From NCBI RefSeq assembly GCF_000003815.2, contig NC_049980.1, positions 23,659,932 to 23,723,931 on the forward strand: a stretch of DNA of 64,000 nt. The letters run 5' to 3'. Source of the stretch: Branchiostoma floridae. Lineage: Eukaryota > Chordata > Leptocardii > Amphioxiformes > Branchiostomatidae. Within the stretch, counting starts at the first letter, position 1. Each line of letters begins with the position of its first letter. Shown piece after piece: positions 30,743 through 63,505 of this stretch. The translations under genes and the position numbers were made by a program. A model generated the notes under the pieces. It was not told where the DNA came from and did no database searches. It saw nothing but the letters and a program-made list of their open reading frames with translations.

Positions 30743-30815
30743 ATGGCTTGCCTCTTACGCACCTGCTGGCTGTTAGCAGTCGTTCTCCTCCACTGCCCAT
30801 GGCTAACACAAGCAG
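30743..30815 (+). other. Signal-peptide exon of the Ig-CARD gene
   Basis: Encodes MACLLRTCWLLAVVLLHCPW and ends LTQA, a classic signal peptide with a hydrophobic core and small residues before the predicted cleavage near Ala24. The donor is AGCAG|GTACG, phase 1. A 5' UTR intron acceptor (ttctag|) lies immediately before the ATG, so an upstream non-coding exon is likely. Confidence 0.75.
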
Positions 30816-33800
30816 GTACGTTTGTCACCGGTGCATATCACTACCGAGGGCGACATCACTACAATGCATTTACTTATTTATATCAGTCGTAAGAAACTTT
30901 GGCTACTAAAAATTATTATTTAACAGCAGGTTCCATTGGGTTAATCAGTCACTGGATAACAAATTAATTTCTGTAACCAATTGTCTTCGCCTGATCGACG
31001 TTTCAGTAATCTCAATATTGACTGGTTATACTTCGCACTACGGTAAGGGCGGAGGAAGGATATAAGCTCGGTCACGTTTGCGTGATCTACTAACATGTGT
31101 GTTCTCATCTTTCATTTGCCACATTGCGTTTCATGCAACTGATGCACCTAGCACACGAATAAAACGCAAACATATCATTCCTATATATATAGTGCTTCTA
31201 TCAGAAGACGAGCTCGTGGCGGCCCGTCATTTCATCAAGCCGGACGATGTGATATTTGACCCCTTCAGTCCAACCCCGGAGGTTACGCTACCGTGCAACT
31301 CAACAGGAGAACAGCCGCTCACTTACAGTTGGAGAAAGGATGGCCAACTATTAGATTTGGTGAGGAGATCCACTTTGTCTTTCTATTTATTCATTGTGCT
31401 AAGCTTAAGGTATGTACATGTACCATTGTAATCCCTGAGAGTTTTAACCAATATTCTTTTAGTCTGTGGTACACGTAGAATTTTTTGTTTGTTTTCTTTG
31501 TTCTGCATACCCGGTAAACCGCCTTTAGGGGTTACATACCGTTCAGTTGTAGTTGTACAACAGGTGCAAGCTGCATAATACCATACGTGACTCACTCACA
31601 CCGAGATGGACCCCTACTCTGTTCAATACGTATGATGGGACCTGCGACTTGACGTCCCATCCGAGGGATTATCCCTAACAGAAGCTAAGTACTCATTTGT
31701 ACCTGAGTAGAATGAGCAAGTAGGATTAAAGTGACTCTCCAAAGGGCACAGCTTTAGGGCCTGCTAGGTATGTTTATATAATACTAATTTCATCGTCATC
31801 TTTGTAATAGAATTCTCGACAACCACCATACGTGATGGACGCTGGCGCATTGATAATCCAGAGACCAGAGAAGACCAAAGATGAAGGAGTTTATCAGTGT
31901 GTGGCCGAGAACGACTACGGCAAGGTTATCAGCAGACAGGCTAATCTCACTTTTGCCTGTGAGTCGAGCTATATTGCATTATCATCACACTTTAACCAGT
32001 TTGTTGATTTTTATATGACGGTGTGAAGAAGTACTCGTACATGAAGGTAAAATGGAGAACGAAGATCTGGCGCTCACAGTGTTACTAAAAGTAACGACTC
32101 TACAACTTTTTTTCTTCAGATTCAGACCCGTTTGCTCAAACTCCACGCCCGCCTGTATCCGGAAGTGAGGGCGAAGGTGCGGTGCTGCGGTGCCAGAAGC
32201 CAGACGCATATCCAGGTACTTCACTACATCGATGGATTGAATTCATGTTCCTGTCTAGGCTCTAATATTTAAGTTGTGCTTTCCTACAAATCTACAAACC
32301 TAATTAGCTAACCAACCAACCATCAAACAATCCATCCATCAAACTGAATGTTAAAACTTATAGGTGAACTGCAAGTACATGTAGTTGATAAGCTTGAAAG
32401 CTCTTACTGATATCATGTCGTCCAATATCATAATCCATCACCACTGTATTGTGGTTAATCATTTATCCCCTCGAATTTCTCGTTACAAAAATTGCCTGCT
32501 TCAATTTCTTTCCAAGTCTTCAATGAACAATCCCACTGACTGAGGTACGAATGGACATGATAGGGTACGAATGGACATGATAGATCAGCTCAGGTGTCAG
32601 TATGGTTATTCTCTAATACAGCAGTAAACAATATGCTTTGTCGTTTGCACGCACACCTCCAGGTCTCATGTTCTTCTGGGTGGAATCAGGCTCGCTAGAC
32701 CCGGCCTTCGCAGTAACCAACCAGCGGGTGTACGTGTCCCAGAAGACGGGGGACTTGTACTTCGCCCGTGCTGAGCCGAACGATCCCGGAGACTACCAGT
32801 GTGTGTTGCGACTGTCAGTGGACCCGACGTCTCCTTTACGCCACCTCAGCCCAACAGTCTCATTCTCGGTTGCAGATCAGTGTACGTATTTTAGTACGTG
32901 AAGAATGTTGCTGACGCAGTGCTGTCCCGCGATACTACATGACCCTGAGAGCAAAGATTATCTGAGTCTTGCTATGGATATTCCAAACGGCAACGCATTT
33001 CTTTGGCTATCGTTGTCACAAACCACTTTTGATAACACGTTTTAGCAACCTTCAATTGCCATGGTAGTTAACATATATTTTCTAGTATGCACTGTTAGAA
33101 TATCTAAGTTATGAGTAGTTAGTAAATTGAGGCATCGCCACGTGTTTTTATCTTTAGCCCCGCCCCAATCGGCGCCCAACCTGGTTCTTTACGAGGGGGA
33201 CTCGATAACGTCCGTCATCCATGCCGTCGTCTTGATGGAGGGCTTCGCCTACGGAAAGTGAGACATTTTCCTCACATTCTCACTCTCGGATTTGCACAAG
33301 GGCAGGGCCATATTGCATTATTACCATCGAACTGAAATATGTACTAGACTTGTAAACTAGATTTTGCTTTTCACTCCAAAGACGATTGCTTTTAGGCGCT
33401 TCCTCTTTTACATACGAGTCTCAATTACACTACGTTCTCATACCGATTCTGTTCTTCTGCAAAGCCCCATACCAACCTTGACGTGGCGGCGTCTGGACGC
33501 GCAAGGCAATGAAGTTGCTATGCCACCAGCTAATAGACTGGCAATGGAGACCTGGAACAGAGCTTTGACCATCTCCAACGTTCAGCGGGAAGACGCGGGC
33601 TTCTATGAGGTCACCGCTACCAACAGTCTGGGGACACAGTCACAGATAACTCAACTCTTCGTTAATGGTAACTTCTTACATACCATTGAAGTGTTGATTC
33701 ACTACAAGCACCGCATTAATTTATGATCAATCAATCTAATTTTCTCAATTTACAATCCGGTTCTTTCGAAATTGAAGGTTACGTATAACATTTTTTTGGC

Positions 33801-36800
33801 ACTTGAGAGTAGAATGAAGACGTTTTTTTCTCTTCTTTACTCCCTACAGTTGGACCCCAGTTTTCAAAGTCCTTGTCTGACCAGAACCACCGCCTGGATC
33901 TAGGGGAGTCTGTGACGTGGGACGTCGCCTGGGATGTTGGGGATACCACAGATCCTGTGGACGTCGTCTGGCTACATAACGCCGAGGTTTGTGGTCCATA
34001 TTTCCAAACAAATCAACATTCAAGTGAAACGAACAAAAACAGGGAAATTATAGGCAACTATCACAGACATGCAACAGAATTCGATGTCCAATGATCATAT
34101 GTCTAAGAAGTTGTCAAAGACACATCCATTGCAATTGAACTTCGTGAATAGTTTCAGGTGGTATCATATATGTCGGTATGATATTAATAAGCACATTCCA
34201 ATACATCTACCTACCTGTGGCAGTAGGGCGACTGCCCAAACTTAAGAAAAGGTAAGAAGAAGAACTTGGATGTATACACGAAGTTCTAGTATGATAACAA
34301 CATAAACCTTGTTTGTATGTAGATTCTAACGGAAGGAGGCAGATACAGGATGACGCAATCCGGTAACACAGCGTCACTACAAATCACCGACCTGACCGAA
34401 GAAGACAGCGGCGCCTATCAGTGCTCAATATCAAACCTTTACGGCAGGACAAGAAGCTCCGCAGAACTTCACTCAGGAGGTAACGGTTTTGCATGGAAAG
34501 AGATACAAGCTGGCTTATAGATCAAAGCTGAGAGCATGACGCAACCAGGATTTGAAAAACACCTTATTGCTATCTAGCAGCCTATGTACCGTCCCTATCA
34601 GTGCAGGCTAGCTCCCACACTAGTGTGCAGTATGAAAGCTATCGCGAACTAACTAGAGGATGGCACCTACATTTATCATCACAACTGTAGCTCACCTACC
34701 TAAAATGTGGCCTCTCTTTCAATCAATAGTATTTTTCATAACACAAAACCAAAAGCATTTGATAATGCCCTTACTGAAACCAAGCAAGTGGACGACATTT
34801 TTCAAGAAGTTGAAAACGCTCAGCACTTTCAAGAAGTTTATAGTTATAAAGAGCACTGAGCCATGGCAATTTATTATGACCCAGTTTTTGATTGCTTACA
34901 GATGTACCCTCGATACAGGTACATGGGCTATCAGGGTTTGATGTATAGCAACCTGAAGGGATATTTCGTTCTTTCCAGCCCCATCCTATGTGAGAAACAT
35001 TAGACTGACAGACAGTGGGGACGATTACGCTGTGCTAGACTGGGACCCGCCCCTAGGCTACGACGGTGACGACATAGGCGGGTATCAGGTGCAGGCCATC
35101 CCGAAGAGTGGAGGAGACACGAGGACCATCGATGTCGGTCCTGCGGAGACAACAGCGCGGATTGATGGGTTAAATGGCGACTCGGGTGGTTACACATACC
35201 GGGTAAGGCAAATTGTCGCAGAATAAGTTCACCAATGGGATGAAACTACGCATATACAGGATATATAAATATGTGGAAGTTTTGAAGGAGAAAATAAGGT
35301 GAAGGGGACTGATTTTTTTATTGCGTGGTCTGTGTGTTATGCCAGAGACATGTCTAACTTCACAGGGAGCCATTGCCGATAGATGTTACGATTCGGGAAC
35401 AAGAAGCCGCTTACTCAAGAACTTCATTATTTTGGTCCTCCGTTGGGCAAACCAGTCAAAGATATGGGCCTGTAGATCCCTTCCAACGTTTTCGTCTTTT
35501 TATTTTAAAAGATACAACAGATACTTCATTCTTCCCAGGTTCGTGCGAGGAGCACTGGAGGTACATGGGGTCCATGGACGACATTTCGTGAGGACCAGGG
35601 TGGATCAGGAGCCAGAACTGCAGAATCCACCAGCCAACTGCTGACCTGGCTACTTCCACTGCTGATCGTGCTTCTGTTGTTGCTGATCCTACTGGTTAGA
35701 TATTTCTTCATGCGTTCCAAAACATTGTATACGATACATGTACATGCACTTCCATACTGATGTAGGGGAAATGTTAAGAGAATATTAACAGACAGCCACT
35801 GACCAAGTGGCAAATGTGTTGCACTATAGCCCAATTTTCTCCACATGTCTGTGGAAGCTTAGGAAGACGTGTGAAACAAAATTTGATATTCTTTTCTTGA
35901 CCTGTCCATGGAGAACATTGAGATTTTGAGAAAATTACAGACACACAAATTGCTCCAGAAAATCTACCAGTCTGCAGCAAATCACGACACTACGACTAGA
36001 AACGATCGACTCTCAATGTGCTTTATACTAACAATAGTATTGTTTTTTTCCACAGCTTAGTGCAGACAAAATTTCATAATCACGAGATGCCTCTCTCTCT
36101 TCTTGTTATTTCCATTGTATGACAGCTTAGCAATGCAAGACCATAAAAAACGAATTTCAATATTTTTGATACTTACTGTCGTCGATCATCTAGTGTTGTT
36201 GCTGCTGCCTATGGCTGGGGTTGTGTGGGAAATACTGCCCCTGTTGCACCTGCTGGACCTGTTTCGACCGGACGGAATCCAAACACTACAAAGGTGACCA
36301 ATTAATAGAGAATGTGCCTAATTACAAGAACTGATGGTATTCTTTCAGTAGGTAGTAAATTTTGACGTACAAACAAAGGTATTGATGTGACTTTTTTTTC
36401 ATACAGCAGTGTTTCAACATGGTCATTCCAAGAATATACTCATTTCTTTAAAGTGTCGTCACAGGCGCTTGTGGCTTTCTATAGCTACATTGTTGCTGTA
36501 TATGAAAATGCTGCCATTTGTCTATTGCAGCTATGAGAAGAGATCACCAAGAGATGCTGAAGCTGTACCGACTTGATGCTGTTACACACGTGCAAAATCC
36601 CGACAGGATTACCGCGTTCCTGGCCTCCAGGAAGGTGCGGCTCCCAACTGGCATGAGCCCCATCAAAAAGTAAGGCATGCGTGTTTACGTTATGGGAATG
36701 CACAACATTGCAGAAAACCAAAACTAAAATTTGTGTACTTAACCTGTCTGCCAGGATATGTATTGTTAGGTCAGTGCCCTCACGACAGCAGGTGTTTTCC

Positions 36801-39800
36801 ATAAGCGCCCGATTCAAAACTCAAAGCTGATTCTCGTGGCCACAAAAAGTTCAAGTCTCTAGACTTTTCTCAACAGCCTTTTTAAAATCCGTTTGCGAAT
36901 AAACTTGCGATTACACTGGTGTTATCAGTATCTTTGATTGGTCACATTTGATGCACGTATTTCAGGCCACGTACTCGAGAAGATCGTAACAAGGTGCTCC
37001 TGGATAACCTGACGTTTGGAGAGGATGATGCCTTTGAAGGATACTGCGCTGCACTCAGGGAGGAGGAGAAGCTGTACTGGCTGGCAGACACCTTGGAAGG
37101 ATCGGGTATTTGACTAATCTTGCCGGTTATTGAAGTATAGAAGTTTTAAAACATCTAGTAGAAATTGGTAGTTGTGCATTCAATTTTCCGCTGAAGAAAT
37201 GCATTTTTTTCTAACCACCAGGACTGTCTGTTGACCTTCGCGAGCAGCTGATGCGACATCAAACTGTCCTGGTTGAAAAGATGGACCCTGATATAACATT
37301 GGCCCATCTCTCCAAGCAAAAGGTAAAAGTTTCAGAAATTATAGAATTTGCTAAAACAACATTTAATTCAATGAGACACGACCTTTTGTCTCACATGGAT
37401 CTTCATTGCCAAATAAAGAGAAGAATACTTTATATCAATTTTGCCTGCTTGGTGTTGATGTATAACAATCATTATTTGACATGAATCCATATGATACGTT
37501 GCTACCATCCATGGTTGTGGCGTTTAAATGTCGCGTCATATAAAATGTTTTTGTCTTTTTTGCTATTCCAATGAACAGGTCTTCACCGACGCCATGAGTG
37601 ATTATGCGTCGAGTGCAGACTCGCGTGAGGAGAAGAACAGGCGCATTGTCCACCTCCTACAGTCACGTGATGACCCTGACTTCTTCACGTTCTGCGGAGC
37701 CCTGAGGCAGAATCAGAGCCAGGCTCACCTAGCGGACCTCCTGCAAGGTACAACATTGTTTTCTCAAGTTCTCTTCACATCGCTATCGTGTTCAATCATA
37801 TGCATCTTTCATCTAAACAATATAGAATCATCACTTTTTCCATACTAACGTTTTCAACAGAACCTCACGTTATCTTTTCGCGACAGTCACCGGTGAATTC
37901 GAAGGCCCGGGATGTAAGGACATAAAAGGTATACACATGTGGCTAACGACATTAACATCCATTTCGAGACTGGCCATCATTGCAAAAGCGACATTTTGCA
38001 TTTCAGAAGAAGGACTGGACCTAAACAAAAGCGTGCTGCTGGAAGAGAAAAGCATTGACAACGCAACGAAGGCGTACAGTGAATTGGACAGCAAAGGTTA
38101 CCGTCAGGAAATTCACAGGGAAACACACCTCTTCACCCACACATCTGGTTCGTACAAGGCCCTGAATCCATTTCCGCTCTCCTTCCTAAAGGCTCTGGCA
38201 ACATCTCAACTTCATGTTTTCTCTTTAGTACCAATCGTTAGAATGAGTTGCTTTGGCTAGCTAAAAGTGGTCCTATGACAATCACATATACCTTGTTGCT
38301 AGTATGAATGTTCAAGAACTAACTTAACGTTAACCTCACTCATTCAAAGACATTATCATCAGAAATGAAACTGATAACTAATTGCTAATTCGATCACTTA
38401 TCGTTTGCGCTAGCTTGAATGATGACTGGTGTTTTAAACAAGCTCTGACCAAAATGGGATTTGAAAGTTTGCTATTCACGGGTTACAAGCATATGGTATA
38501 AAATGCATTGGCGTCTTCAGGTAAATGTGATGTTATGCTGCAGCACGTGTATGGTATTTACTTTTCGTCTCTTCTTCTTTGCACCAGTAACGCAGACCCA
38601 TCACATCAACGAGATGAATCAAGGGAATGGTGCTGTCCAATGGCAAGGTACAGTATGACCCTGAGACACATTATGTATTATGTACAGCATAAGATCAATC
38701 AACCGCACCGGAAAGTGTTGCGTCAGTATCAAAATCCACAATGTACAGCCGGTATCATTCTGCCTTTGCTGATAGAATGCCTTGTTGTTTTATAAAATGA
38801 TCTAATGCTTCTTATGACATCACCCAAACTCCACTATCAACTTTGATATTAAAGATAGAATGTGGTATAATGACTATTGCTACGGTTTGGTTGATCAAGG
38901 AATGTACTTTGCATTGTCTAGTTTTACACAATTGACCACCCCGGCATAGTTTAGATACCATTTGTTAACAAGAAAGCTGGGATTTTGCACCTTGCAACTA
39001 TATTCAATGGCTCTTATTTCCAGCAGCTGATGGCGGTGTCTACATTGGCGATCAGCGGAGGGAGGGAGAGCCCATACAGAGGCAATTGTCCCTGGCTGAT
39101 CCGACCATCAGGTCAGGCGCTTCTGCGGTGGCCCGAAGAGGACAACCGGTCATATTGGAGGTCAACGGAGAAGGTGCGTCCCTTACTTTTATATGACATG
39201 ACTCATTTTAGGTATGGGATATTATTGGGGAGATTAAGGCCATATGTATGATATTGTATATACCTACCGCACTATGTTCCCATAATTACATCATTATTTC
39301 ATACAGTTAACAACGGCACAGAAACAAGCCGCACGGTTAGTGACTGGCCTAATTTTGGGGCTTACAATATTATGGAATCCTCGTACAGTTTGTTTCTACA
39401 GCGTTTTAACCGCTTTAAGTATGAAATAATGATGTAAATGTGGAAATACAGTGCAGTAGATGTCAATATCATACCGATTGCCTTATCCCAAACATCATCC
39501 CACTTTTAACGCTCCGATATTGCTTAGTTGTCTTTACAGACGAATGGAAAAATGCATTTTTTTATAAGTTGTCACCGTCAGTGTCAGGAAATATCAACCT
39601 CAGTTCTCTATCATTGCATGGGCGTGGTACAGAACGAAGACTTTCATGAGAAAACAATAAGTTTACATATACTTGACATGTGAGTTACAGATTGCTAGTG
39701 CCAGCACGGCATAAGCTTACTTTGGAAACGTTTCGATCACGACTGCTTTTTGTTTGAATTTTCAAGTGGACGATGCCCATTGGTTGCTGAACAACGGATC

Positions 39801-39978
39801 CCTGCCGGTGAACAAAGGCATCCACGTCCGTACGTCCGGTCTGACCCACGAGCTGAAGATAGACGGCATGACCCCAGACCTGGCAGGCACCTACACCTGC
39901 CAAGGTACCACACCAGATGGGGCCATGTTGTCATGTGATATCAGGATCACACTGCTGGACCCTTACCCATCTCTGTAA
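30743..39978 (+). CDS. Ig/FN3 transmembrane receptor with cytoplasmic tandem CARD and Ig domain
   Basis: Predicted exons: 30743-30815, 31205-31359, 31811-31958, 32120-32215, 32663-32881, 33158-33257, 33465-33667, 33850-33986, 34323-34479, 34979-35202, 35539-35694, 36194-36293, 36531-36669, 36966-37105, 37222-37322, 37579-37747, 37887-37928, 38007-38096, 38588-38647, 39024-39173, 39767-39978. All introns are GT-AG and phases agree throughout, giving 2871 nt (956 residues plus TAA). Signal peptide 1-24 (MACLLRTCWLLAVVLLHCPW...). Contactin/L1-like Ig1 35-125, Ig2 126-230, Ig3 231-331, Ig4 332-430; FN3 ~431-525; TM ~540-556; Cys-rich 557-580; CARD1 ~591-684; CARD2 ~686-773; linker; Ig5 ~865-950. 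No ITIM, kinase or TIR was seen. The role inferred is a surface receptor linking adhesion or recognition to CARD signalling. Exon 2 could instead begin at 31193, also in frame. The exon at 36194-36293, which connects ectodomain and CARDs, matters most for the one-gene model; the alternative is two adjacent genes. Confidence 0.75.
31205..34479 (+). other. Four contactin-like Ig domains (exons 2-9)
   Basis: Ig1 has Cys55, Trp67 and the DEGVYQCVAEND motif (Cys106). Ig2 has Cys150, the contactin/L1-style YPGLMFFW (Trp163), VSQKTGDLYFARAEPNDPGD and Cys204. Ig3 keeps GNPIPTLTWRR and EDAGFYEVTATNS but lacks both disulphide cysteines. Ig4 keeps EEDSGAYQCSIS (Cys411) but has Trp instead of the strand-B Cys (SVTWDVAW). 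Most of these domains are split over two exons, as in vertebrate contactin/L1 genes. The ectodomain should bind a protein ligand, possibly homophilically. Confidence 0.85.
34979..35694 (+). other. FN3 domain and transmembrane helix exons
   Basis: FN3 begins APSYVRNIRL and contains LDWDPP, GGYQVQAI and YTYRVRARSTGG, the normal FN3 landmarks, over two exons. A Gly/Ser/Thr-rich stalk follows, then TWLLPLLIVLLLLLILL, a 17-residue hydrophobic stretch that ends exactly at the exon boundary. Contactins have four FN3 and a GPI anchor, whereas this protein has one FN3 and a TM helix. Reading through the donor would add about 20 residues and then stop, a possible short-tail isoform. Confidence 0.8.
36194..36293 (+). 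other. Cys-rich juxtamembrane exon joining receptor to CARDs
   Basis: Phase 0 in and phase 1 out. It encodes CCCCCLWLGLCGKYCPCCTC followed by WTCFDRTESKHYK: 11 cysteines within about 23 residues immediately after the TM helix. Such clusters are typical palmitoylation sites on the cytoplasmic face. The acceptor is catctag|tg and the donor is AAAG|GTGACC. Its phases are exactly those needed to join the TM exon (phase 0 out) to the first CARD exon (phase 1 in), which supports a single gene. Confidence 0.65.
36531..37105 (+). other. CARD domain 1 (two exons)
   Basis: Residues about 591-684. CARD landmarks are in order: basic helix 1 (RRDHQEMLKLYRLDAVTHVQ), the helix 2-3 turn PDRITAFLASRKV, charged TREDRNKVLLDNL, then AFEGYCAALREEEKLYWLAD, which matches the AFxxFcxxLrexxxxxLAxxL end of many CARDs. 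CARDs make homotypic contacts that build caspase- or NF-kB-activating filaments. Confidence 0.8.
37222..37747 (+). other. CARD domain 2 (two exons)
   Basis: Residues about 686-773. It opens DLREQLMRHQTVLVEKMDPD, continues ITLAHLSKQKVFTDAMSDYA and SREEKNRRIVHLLQSRDDPD, and ends FFTFCGALRQNQSQAHLADL. This is the same helix pattern as CARD1 with low sequence identity, so the tandem is ancient rather than a fresh duplication. Its split into two exons parallels CARD1. Confidence 0.8.
37887..39978 (+). other. Linker cassettes and cytoplasmic Ig domain
   Basis: Four exons (42, 90, 60 and 150 nt) are all phase 1 at both ends, so each could be skipped without breaking the frame. They encode a polar, acidic linker. 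The last two exons form an I-set-like Ig domain: ARRGQPVILEVNGE, then DDAHWLLNNGSLP, HELKIDGMTPDLAGTYTCQG and CDIRITL, with TAA soon after. It lacks a strand-B Cys (LEVNGE). Its position beyond the CARDs places it in the cytosol, as in MALT1 or titin-type proteins. Confidence 0.7.
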
Positions 39979-46694: not shown

Positions 46695-47615
46695 CTAGCA
46701 GGAGATGTCGAAACGCGGCAAGAGTTCTCTCCGCTCCCTCATGACGGTCACCTGTCGGACGTACCCGGACAGCACCTGACGACACTCCCGCTCGAACCCC
46801 GACAGCGTGCCGCTCCCGTCTCCCCGCCGGATGTAGCTGTCCAGTACGGATGTGTACACGTCCGAGTCCACGATTTTCAGCTCGGCGATGGCGGCGTAGT
46901 TCCTGAGGGTCAGCTTGCCGAAGGGTTCATGTCTGCAGCCCTCAGAGACGGACAGCGAGCGGTCCTGTCTCAGTCGGTCCAGGATGCGTCCATACGAGTC
47001 GTGGATGGGTCTCAGGTCGGCGGATAGAGAGAAGTGTCCTGACCGGTCGGTGTCGGTTCGGCTGACCTTGGCGGTGGCTTCAGATGTCTCGTCTCCAGAC
47101 CGCCGTCTCTTCCTGATGTTCACCGTACTGTCGGGACTGGCCGGGCGGGAGGACACCGGGGAGGAGGACGGTCTGGCGGAGGACCGAGCCGGTCTGGTCT
47201 GGCGGGAGGCTGTCGGTGACTGCGATGAGCTGATTTCACTCTCGTCGGTGGAGACGGGCGTGGACGGACGGCTGTGGTGCGGAGACCTCGCCATCATGAC
47301 CCCGATGACCTTCTGGTAGCGATGCAGCATCAGCATGGAGACGTACAGGGCGACTCCTAGACGGCGGTGGCTGTGCATGACGGGGCTGGTGGGCGGGTGG
47401 AAGAGCTTGTCGCAGTTGTCACAAAGGCACAAGACTCTCTCGCGGTTGTAGGACACACAGACGGGGTCCAGGCAGACCCAGGCCGCCTGGTGGCCGCACC
47501 GCCCGCACAGGAACGACCGTGCCTTGGCGTCGAAGTCGTCGGCTCTCTTGGCGACCCATTCGGCTCGGGACCCGGAGTAGGAAGCGCTGAGGGAAAGGTT
47601 GTCTGTTCTCTCCAT
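46695..47615 (-). CDS. Intronless B-box-like zinc-binding protein
   Basis: A single open frame of 306 codons, GC-rich against an AT-rich background. The N-terminal module has Cys37, Cys40, Cys48, Cys53, Cys63, Cys65, Cys68, His73, His81 and His83, spaced C-x2-C-x7-C-x4-C-x9-C-x1-C-x2-C-x4-H-x7-H-x1-H. This is compatible with a B-box-type cross-brace zinc fold (...CDNCDKLFHPP...HSHRR). Residues ~108-165 are Ser/Pro/Arg-rich and probably disordered. RKRRR near 170 is a likely nuclear localisation signal. Residues ~195-306 are a conserved-looking charged region of unknown fold (RPIHDSYGRILDRLRQDRSL ... CRQVLSGYVRQVTVMRERRE). The start ATG is the first in frame, about 70 bases after the expected transcription start. 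No RING precedes the B-box, so it is not a standard TRIM. Function unknown; a nuclear or regulatory scaffold role is inference. The lack of introns may mean retroposition, but no poly(A) tract or flanking repeats were seen. Confidence 0.8.
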   Translation of the reverse strand: MERTDNLSLSASYSGSRAEWVAKRADDFDAKARSFLCGRCGHQAAWVCLDPVCVSYNRERVLCLCDNCDKLFHPPTSPVMHSHRRLGVALYVSMLMLHRYQKVIGVMMARSPHHSRPSTPVSTDESEISSSQSPTASRQTRPARSSARPSSSPVSSRPASPDSTVNIRKRRRSGDETSEATAKVSRTDTDRSGHFSLSADLRPIHDSYGRILDRLRQDRSLSVSEGCRHEPFGKLTLRNYAAIAELKIVDSDVYTSVLDSYIRRGDGSGTLSGFERECRQVLSGYVRQVTVMRERRELLPRFDISC

Positions 47616-47710
47616 ATCGTCACGTTCGTGTTGAAGTCTGTGGCAAGTCAGTCGATGTGCTCTCTGTGGAAACCGACAGAGGTATGACTAGAGCGCTTGT
47701 CGGGACAGGA

Positions 47711-61700: not shown

Positions 61701-63038
61701 GAACATGACATCCAGCCAGCCGACGAACCTTCCGGTGGTGTTGGTTGTGTGCTCGGTACCACCTGTACGTTACTTAATCCGTCTGTTCTATCCTTTTTTG
61801 TTCGTGATGGTGACGCCGCTACCCTACCCCACATATTGTGTCTGTGTTATCTGTGAGTAGACAGGAAATGGAGTTCTCTTCGGAACTTGTGGAGAAGAGA
61901 AGTACCATTTCCTGTCGGATCACAGAAGCATAAGTGAACCTCCCCCAACCTACCCCAGATGTTCTCCCCTCTCCCCTAACCATTCGTGGTTGTACCTCAT
62001 TGCGGTCGGGGTGTGTTCCCCGCCCACCCACCCAAGAACACACCCTCCCCCGACGTACAGGCTGATTGATAACCTAGTTAGACTTACGAACTGGTAATTA
62101 AGTTGATGCTCAACCTTGAACGGAGTAAAATTGTTATGACTATTCAGCACTTAGAATGAGACACCCCGCGTGGTTCATGCCTTGTGGAACAACAACTTCT
62201 TGATTCCTTCCTTAGTTGACCTCTTCTTCGCTACCTTGTATTGTATTGCTTGTATTGTATTACCGTACTTGCCGTTCAACCTTGCATTTAGTTTTTTACT
62301 TGACCTTGTTACTCAGACCGTAATTGTGCTACTCGTTCCTTACTAATTAAGGTCATTATTACGCCACTCTTCTGACATGGTGGCCCCCATGTGACGTAAA
62401 CTTACTGTGACTTACTGTGACTTGAGTTAAGTTGCAAGTCAGGATGCGTTAAACATCCGCTGGACAGAGCATTGGTTTAACCGACCAGCCCGACATTGGC
62501 TTCACATTGGCTTCTTATACATTGGCAACCAGGGTAAAACGTGTCGCCCGCTCGCAGCATGACTTGCTTAGTTCATGGCTATTACACTTGTTATGACCAA
62601 GGACGTTATATCAACTGACTGACGAGGAGCCATTAAACACCCGGCCGCCGTGATGGTGACGCCGCTACCCTACCCCACATATTGTGTCTGTGTTATCTGT
62701 GAGTAGACAGGAAATGGAGTTCTCTTCGGAACTTGTGGAGAAGAGAACCAACACTCCTCACCCCCGGAAATCATTATGTATATACGTTTATGTGTATGTA
62801 CGGTATGTATATACTTCCTCATCCGATAGAGCTCATGGATCAAATTTAACTCAAAACAGTCACCACTGGGTAGCTGTAAACGGATTTATTTTTCCTTCAT
62901 ATTGAACACTTATTTCGTTATCAATCAGGAACCTGATATTTCTGAGGCGCGCATCCCGACACTAATTCACCCTCACCCCGACCATACCGTACGGCATTAC
63001 GGGACATGCCCCCATGTATAGCTCTAGAGCTCATATAT

Positions 63039-63505
63039 GAAATAGAAAAAGGTCGGTACCGTTATGTACCAGCCAACCAGAGGCAATGCCCTTTATGTAA
63101 AGATGGTGTTGAAGATGAGCATCATTTTCTAATGACATGCCCTACGTATAGCGCAGATAGACAAAAATTAATGGATATGATCACATGTAAATCTAGCACA
63201 CCTTTACCAAAGACAAACACATGTACTTTCAATCTACTTATGTCATGTCCAGACTACATATCTTCGTATTTAGGCCAATACATATGTAATGCTCTAAAAA
63301 AGAGAGAATCTATTGTACAGTAACAGACCGACTTGTTTAACTTGCATATTACACTATGTCAATACGCCATTTATGTTCATATTCCTGTACTATACATGTA
63401 TGTAGTTATAGACCTTAGACAAGTATCATTGTATTAATTGACTTATTACTGTTGCCCAATTGTACCATGTACAAATGTCGCGCAATAAAGTTCATTCAGT
63501 CATTC
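63039..63505 (+). mobile_element. 5'-truncated non-LTR retrotransposon (CR1/L2/jockey-like 3' end)
   Basis: The frame ending at 63323 encodes the typical C-terminus of a non-LTR reverse transcriptase: EIEKGRYRYVPANQRQCPLC, then VEDEHHFLMTCPTYSADR. A ~180-bp 3' UTR follows, with AATAAAG at 63484 and a short ttcattcagtcattc tail. The empty site in copy 1 (51430-51460) lacks it, and short TATATA sequences flank both ends, suggesting a small target duplication. Dead on arrival: only ~95 residues of the polyprotein remain. Confidence 0.85.

Follow-up and report, generated by a model that had tools for sequence, protein, structure and literature searches.

Does an adhesion-type ectodomain sit on the same polypeptide as a pair of intracellular CARDs, or have two neighboring genes been read as one? 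The question is raised by a gene at positions 30743-39978 (plus strand) of the window, by which we mean the whole stretch of 64,000 nucleotides of the Branchiostoma floridae genome analyzed here (C2:23659932-23723931, contig NC_049980.1). A preliminary description had read it as a contactin-like Ig/FN3 receptor fused to tandem CARDs and a cytosolic Ig domain. We consider it probable that this is indeed one gene, belonging to a lancelet-expanded family of type I membrane receptors that would extend from a contactin-derived Ig1-4 head to a cytosolic Ig. The exons, domain matches, domain order and paralogs can be read directly from the DNA; that the protein nucleates CARD assembly without an adaptor, or acts as an immune or death receptor, is something we only infer.

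Gene Model and Domain Order

The exon chain, rebuilt by hand, comprises 21 exons with all 20 introns of the GT-AG type and an open frame of 977 residues plus stop. A spliced protein-to-DNA aligner, fed the rebuilt protein, returned the identical 21 exons, the final one minus the stop codon. The exons, splice sites and phases described earlier are thus present in the DNA, while the frame of 956 codons given at that time has to be corrected, some boundaries having been off by about 21 codons in sum; the residues assigned to the CARDs (591-773, here 594-776) and to the last Ig (865-950, here approximately 886-970) were close. The predicted protein runs from a signal peptide through four Ig domains, one FN3, a transmembrane (TM) helix and a cysteine-rich strip to two CARDs, a linker and the last Ig, and the proposed architecture of contactin-type ectodomain, TM segment, two CARDs and tail Ig is borne out by domain matches and by its repetition in paralogs. 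With the whole protein as query, Pfam gave I-set at 2.7e-43 (five stretches), CARD at 1.1e-10 (two stretches) and fn3 at 3.2e-7.

A Family of Paralogous Loci

Protein searches of the genome, in full the 513,431,437-base assembly, yielded 86 exon-sized matches in one run (E<=10) and at least 81 in another (E<=1), in which the number of candidates scored was capped. Nine loci have a tail-Ig match below E 1e-7, each adjoined by a CARD2 exon; the analysis excludes weaker ones, from E 0.003 upward, many of which fall on C9:8.95-9.08 M and C18. Locus A is the window gene on C2 (plus strand). Identity to A amounts to 782 of 969 aligned positions for locus B (C9:2624082-2639055), 630 of 972 for C (C2:23731119-23759105), 408 of 952 for D (C2:23788429-23798135) and 389 of 915 for E (C9:9107062-9090080, minus strand). 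Loci F, G, H and I form a cluster on the minus strand of C2, in which G (C2:23614379-23611357) and H (23607237-23603620) consist of CARD-CARD-Ig exons and are possibly cytosolic genes or alternative tails. At seven of the nine loci (A-F and I), the ectodomain precedes the CARD-Ig tail on the same strand, the order at F being read from ectodomain, CARD2 and tail Ig, and that at I from exon matches alone, with its TM region outside the sequence examined. Exon 1 was unconvincing in D, E and F.

Each of Ig1-4, CARD1 and CARD2 is encoded by an exon module with phase 1-1 borders, and the number of CARDs varies between loci, with one recognized in F, two in A, B and D, three in C and about five in E, where the initial half of the first additional CARD was read by eye; locus C also has two FN3s. 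Phase 1-1 borders together with a variable CARD number are as exon shuffling would give, and passages of PMC4284660 report that shuffled exons in lancelets are biased towards phase 1-1. The family probably expanded via gene duplication, with modules of this phase being acquired or dropped to leave one to about five CARDs per gene.

Individual loci have peculiarities of their own. In B, a TNQP-type microsatellite (C9:2628441-2629261) occupies the place of the second exon of Ig2; given the phase 1-1 borders of this exon, the frame would survive without it. Between its cysteine exon and CARD1, locus E has three more CARDs, and there is also a Ser/Pro-rich repeat frame (C9:9097137-9090080). Further diverged ectodomain and tail-Ig matches, with one weak CARD1 match (E 2.7), lie at C9:8.95-9.08 M and possibly represent a sister branch whose tail is a different one. 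We also considered a sibling branch carrying death domains and rejected it, as none of the matches listed (150 of 588 candidates scored) fell into C2:23.58-23.80 M or C9:8.95-9.11 M.

Ectodomain, CARDs and Tail Ig

Exon 1 (30743-30815, phase 0-1) encodes the hydrophobic start of the protein, the predicted signal peptide, with 95% DNA identity to paralog B. It is followed by four phase 1-1 modules of two exons each, recognized by Pfam and PDB matches: Ig1 (exons 2-3, 31193-31958), Ig2 (exons 4-5, 32120-32881), Ig3 (exons 6-7, 33158-33667) and Ig4 (exons 8-9, 33850-34479). Searched against PDB sequences, the ectodomain had contactins, one of them named axonin-1, as its ten best matches among the best 60 of 160, with 8a0y on top at 1.5e-64; contactin-2 aligned in one stretch with residues 17-406 of the 409-residue query, reaching 1.4e-54 by itself. 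Judged by these alignments, the ectodomain resembles contactin Ig1-4. The full contactin layout was not found, Pfam and hydropathy giving one fn3 stretch and five Ig stretches, four of which precede the TM helix. Both canonical disulfide cysteines of Ig3 are replaced in A, B, C, D and F and retained in E. Most of FN3 lies in exon 10 (34979-35202; Pfam fn3 at residues 438-521), whereas exon 11 (35539-35694) contributes its end, a stalk and the predicted TM helix, which forms the top Kyte-Doolittle peak of the protein (3.34).

CARD1 (exons 13-14, 36531-37105) and CARD2 (exons 15-16, 37222-37747) are both split over two exons, and an exon-by-exon CARD search of the genome, in which 150 of 187 candidates were scored, placed none of its 149 listed matches in this gene. 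Excised alone, CARD2 matched Pfam CARD above the cut-off (1.1e-8) and CARD1 below it (0.003; 18.0 bits versus 23.9). Together with their relatives, all seven CARD1 sequences (best 7.8e-10) and all nine CARD2 sequences (best 1e-11) matched at E<=1; the former set omits F, which is without a recognizable CARD1, and I, whose exon 13 lies outside the sequence examined, and the latter omits the second CARD2 copy of C. A single-protein PDB search with both CARDs gave weak results, the best match (0.25) being a non-CARD, with CED-3 at 0.36 and CED-4 at 0.41, and profiles were therefore used. RAIDD then came out best for CARD1 (8.4e-7, the next at 0.002), and CED-3 (5.3e-7) and NOD1 (1.4e-5) for CARD2, with CARD11 (0.003) and BCL10 (0.007) lower. 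Among the Pfam families matched by the window protein at E<=1 there were no TNFR cysteine repeats, no death domain and no caspase or caspase-like domain. A motif search of its tail found a single TRAF2-like SREE and zero TRAF6, ITIM or RHIM matches; in the relatives (five models searched), D has one TRAF6-like match and C one ITIM-like plus one RHIM-like match, the ITIM-like one falling into an untrusted stretch of the model.

The weakly conserved linker (exons 17-19, 37887-38647) has a ratio of nonsynonymous to synonymous change (dN/dS) of 0.86 between A and B; the linker models of C and E contain stops or frameshifts in parts and are untrustworthy there. The C-terminal I-set Ig and the stop codon are encoded by exons 20-21 (39024-39978). 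Excised alone, this Ig stayed below the Pfam cut-off (best 1.2e-4; 22.4 bits versus 23.7), and with its relatives nine of nine matched I-set at E<=1 (best 9.9e-10). Its top PDB rows are multi-Ig chains with additive scores (MyBP-C, titin, also CEA and NCAM2), while the single-Ig chains (<=110 residues) matched, nine among the best 60 of 584, are all titin, MyBP-C, MLCK, APEG-1 or obscurin. According to the relatives' alignment, the tail Ig is without a B-strand cysteine, which fits expectation for a domain in the cytosol.

The TM-CARD Junction

Whether receptor and CARDs belong together is better judged at the junction between exon 12 (36194-36293), which encodes the cysteine-rich strip next to the membrane (33 residues, 11 of them Cys), and exon 13. 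The intron separating them, intron 12 (36294-36530), is the contested one. Frame, splice phase and synonymous change favor one gene across this junction in A, B, C and D. The exon-13 acceptor lies two bases before an ATG in A-E, five of the six loci compared, so that exon 12 must end in phase 1 in order to join. When all GT sites from the cysteine strip to the first in-frame stop were scored, the best donor was of phase 1 in A (offset 100), B (100), D (109) and C (a tie of 91 and 130, both phase 1); with A, B and C being close kin, D provides the main independent support. Given the exon-12 peptides as template, the aligner took 139 bases in C and 109 in D. The cysteine strip is also present in B, C, D, E and F, and its pattern occurs at seven places in the genome, of which five belong to the family (A, B, C, D and F), compared with three for the reversed control.

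Nineteen exons of A and B are equal in length or differ by 3, 6 or 12 bases, leaving aside exon 5, which B has lost, and the final exon, where the end of B is the end of the alignment, whereas all 18 introns compared contain gaps, of 5 to 1911 columns. The A-B dN/dS is 0.05 for exon 12, at five differences only, 0.36 for CARD1, 0.20 for CARD2 and 0.45 for ectodomain exons 2-4; dN was smaller than dS in exon 12, CARD1 and CARD2 for the pairs A-B, A-C, A-D and A-E, some dS values being saturated. Of 28 part-pair tests for enrichment of changes at third positions, 16 gave p<0.05 (uncorrected), and the divergence of ectodomain and tail correlates with r 0.97 over ten non-independent pairs of A-E.

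A Possible Signaling Role

If the gene is one, a mechanism can be envisaged. Juxtamembrane cysteines are often palmitoylated, and this is probably the case for the cysteine-rich strip as well. Contactin Ig1-4 folds into a ligand-binding horseshoe; the related head of the window protein might bind a ligand or a surface protein of a neighboring cell and thereby cluster the receptor. CARDs assemble with CARDs, and those held close at the membrane would in turn nucleate such assemblies with partners of the caspase or NOD/RAIDD type, with the tail Ig perhaps docking a partner or the cytoskeleton. Passages of PMC3196919 put the caspase genes of lancelets at 45 or more, many of which have death-fold prodomains, so that partners may exist. 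We tentatively propose, well aware that the odds lie somewhat against it, that lancelets possess plasma-membrane CARD receptors whose tails seed signalosomes upon contact or ligand binding, at a strength set by an exon-shuffled number of CARDs (one to five).

Alternative Explanations

The in-frame ATG at the start of CARD1, kept in five of the six loci compared, invites the thought that one gene makes two products, the full receptor being joined by a soluble CARD-CARD-Ig isoform arising from an internal promoter or start at exon 13, which would tune the receptor. Two of the extra CARD exons of locus E begin likewise. Yet the ATG may as well be the leftover start of a captured CARD gene, or encode a structural residue, and we regard a second product as possible but rather unlikely.

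It is doubtful that the gene product serves in neural or epithelial adhesion, with CARDs that form a static scaffold or are dead in signaling. The contactin-like ectodomain would suit such a protein, as would the best scores of the tail Ig against Igs of muscle filament proteins. However, conserved positions are kept in CARD1 and CARD2 of the aligned members, the dN/dS of CARD2 is 0.20 not only for A-B but also for A-C, and the number of CARDs differs among loci.

Several observations weigh against a single gene altogether. The A-B agreement counts little between such close kin, and third-position enrichment failed for CARD1 (0.39) and the tail Ig (0.39) in this very pair. Co-duplicated neighbor genes would likewise produce a shared order and an r of 0.97, and a conserved exon-13 ATG is what is expected of a separate cytosolic CARD gene. 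In locus E, the best donor (offset 129) is of phase 0, the joined model requires a frameshift, and five AATAAA/ATTAAA words stand between the cysteine exon and CARD1. Locus F is without a recognizable CARD1 and had no in-frame stop in the 400 bases considered, the donor scoring covering A-E. An untemplated aligner run placed the end of exon 12 elsewhere in C and D, and the models of the relatives were templated on the window protein and are hence biased towards it. Finally, G and H gave no ectodomain match, the DNA upstream of their CARD1 lying outside the sequence examined.

The conserved ATG and loci E, G and H would fit two adjacent, co-duplicated genes, one for an Ig/FN3/TM receptor with a short cysteine-rich tail and one that begins at the exon-13 ATG and encodes a cytosolic CARD-CARD-Ig protein. 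According to passages of PMC4967905, many lancelet fusion models were prediction errors, and differences in domain architecture between lancelet species are attributed there to such errors, false fusions included; a false fusion of this kind is the main rival here. Against two genes, intron 12 measures merely 237 bp and is without AATAAA or ATTAAA, and the length of exon 12 varies (A/B, C, D) with the best donor still in phase 1, which separate genes would not need. We judge two genes to be improbable. A chance assembly of exons was rejected, since further loci in the genome show the same order.

Other Features of the Window

Apart from this gene, the window contains a 330-codon open frame on the minus strand (46698-47687) with a weak CCDC106 match (1.2e-5, below cut-off) and, on the plus strand (62946-63320), a fragment with a weak zf-RVT match (0.0066), perhaps a retrotransposon remnant.

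Comparison with Known Systems

CARD signaling is usually triggered inside the cell by cytosolic sensors. If the one-gene reading is true, a surface receptor with CARDs of its own would mean that an animal lineage has wired CARD signaling directly to extracellular recognition, and a CARD number varying by exon modules would offer a natural test of CARD dose versus signaling threshold. The family would also be a test case for whether lancelet domain fusions are real, as discussed in parts of PMC4284660, or gene-prediction errors, as in parts of PMC4967905.

The domain order recurs across a lancelet gene family and is new within what was searched, the signaling role being a reasoned guess. The earlier remark that no protein of this order has been described is uncontradicted by the portions of the literature searched, to which the 2008 Genome Res lancelet immune inventory and other animal proteomes do not belong: no Ig/FN3-TM-CARD receptor is described in the sections covered of PMC2575513, PMC11797021, PMC5978004, PMC6321704, PMC4967905, PMC3196919 and PMC4284660. 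Lancelet hybrid death-fold genes such as TNFR-caspase, LRR-caspase and TIR-NACHT, presented in the part of PMC2575513 covered, likewise join receptor and death-signaling domains; an Ig/FN3-CARD receptor is not among the hybrids in its section 8. The paracaspase MALT1, which according to passages of PMC5978004 has a paracaspase domain besides its death domain and Igs, combines intracellular death-fold and Ig domains as the window protein does, from which it differs by its caspase-type domain.

With contactins (contactin-2/axonin-1, -1, -4 and -5), the window protein has the Ig1-4 block in common. Contactins comprise six Igs, four FN3s and a glycosylphosphatidylinositol anchor, as opposed to four Igs and a single FN3 here, followed by a TM helix and a putative signaling tail. 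NOD2 and RIG-I/MDA5 use two consecutive CARDs as signaling module, and the paired CARDs are alike in this respect; in these sensors, however, they are cytosolic, N-terminal and accompanied by a NACHT or helicase domain, neither of which Pfam found in the window protein. A guidance-type Ig ectodomain linked to cell-death signaling is known from the dependence receptors UNC5 and DCC, to which the window protein would be akin in both features, the difference residing in the intracellular domains: UNC5 has ZU5 plus a death domain and DCC is without a CARD, whereas the window protein is predicted to carry two.

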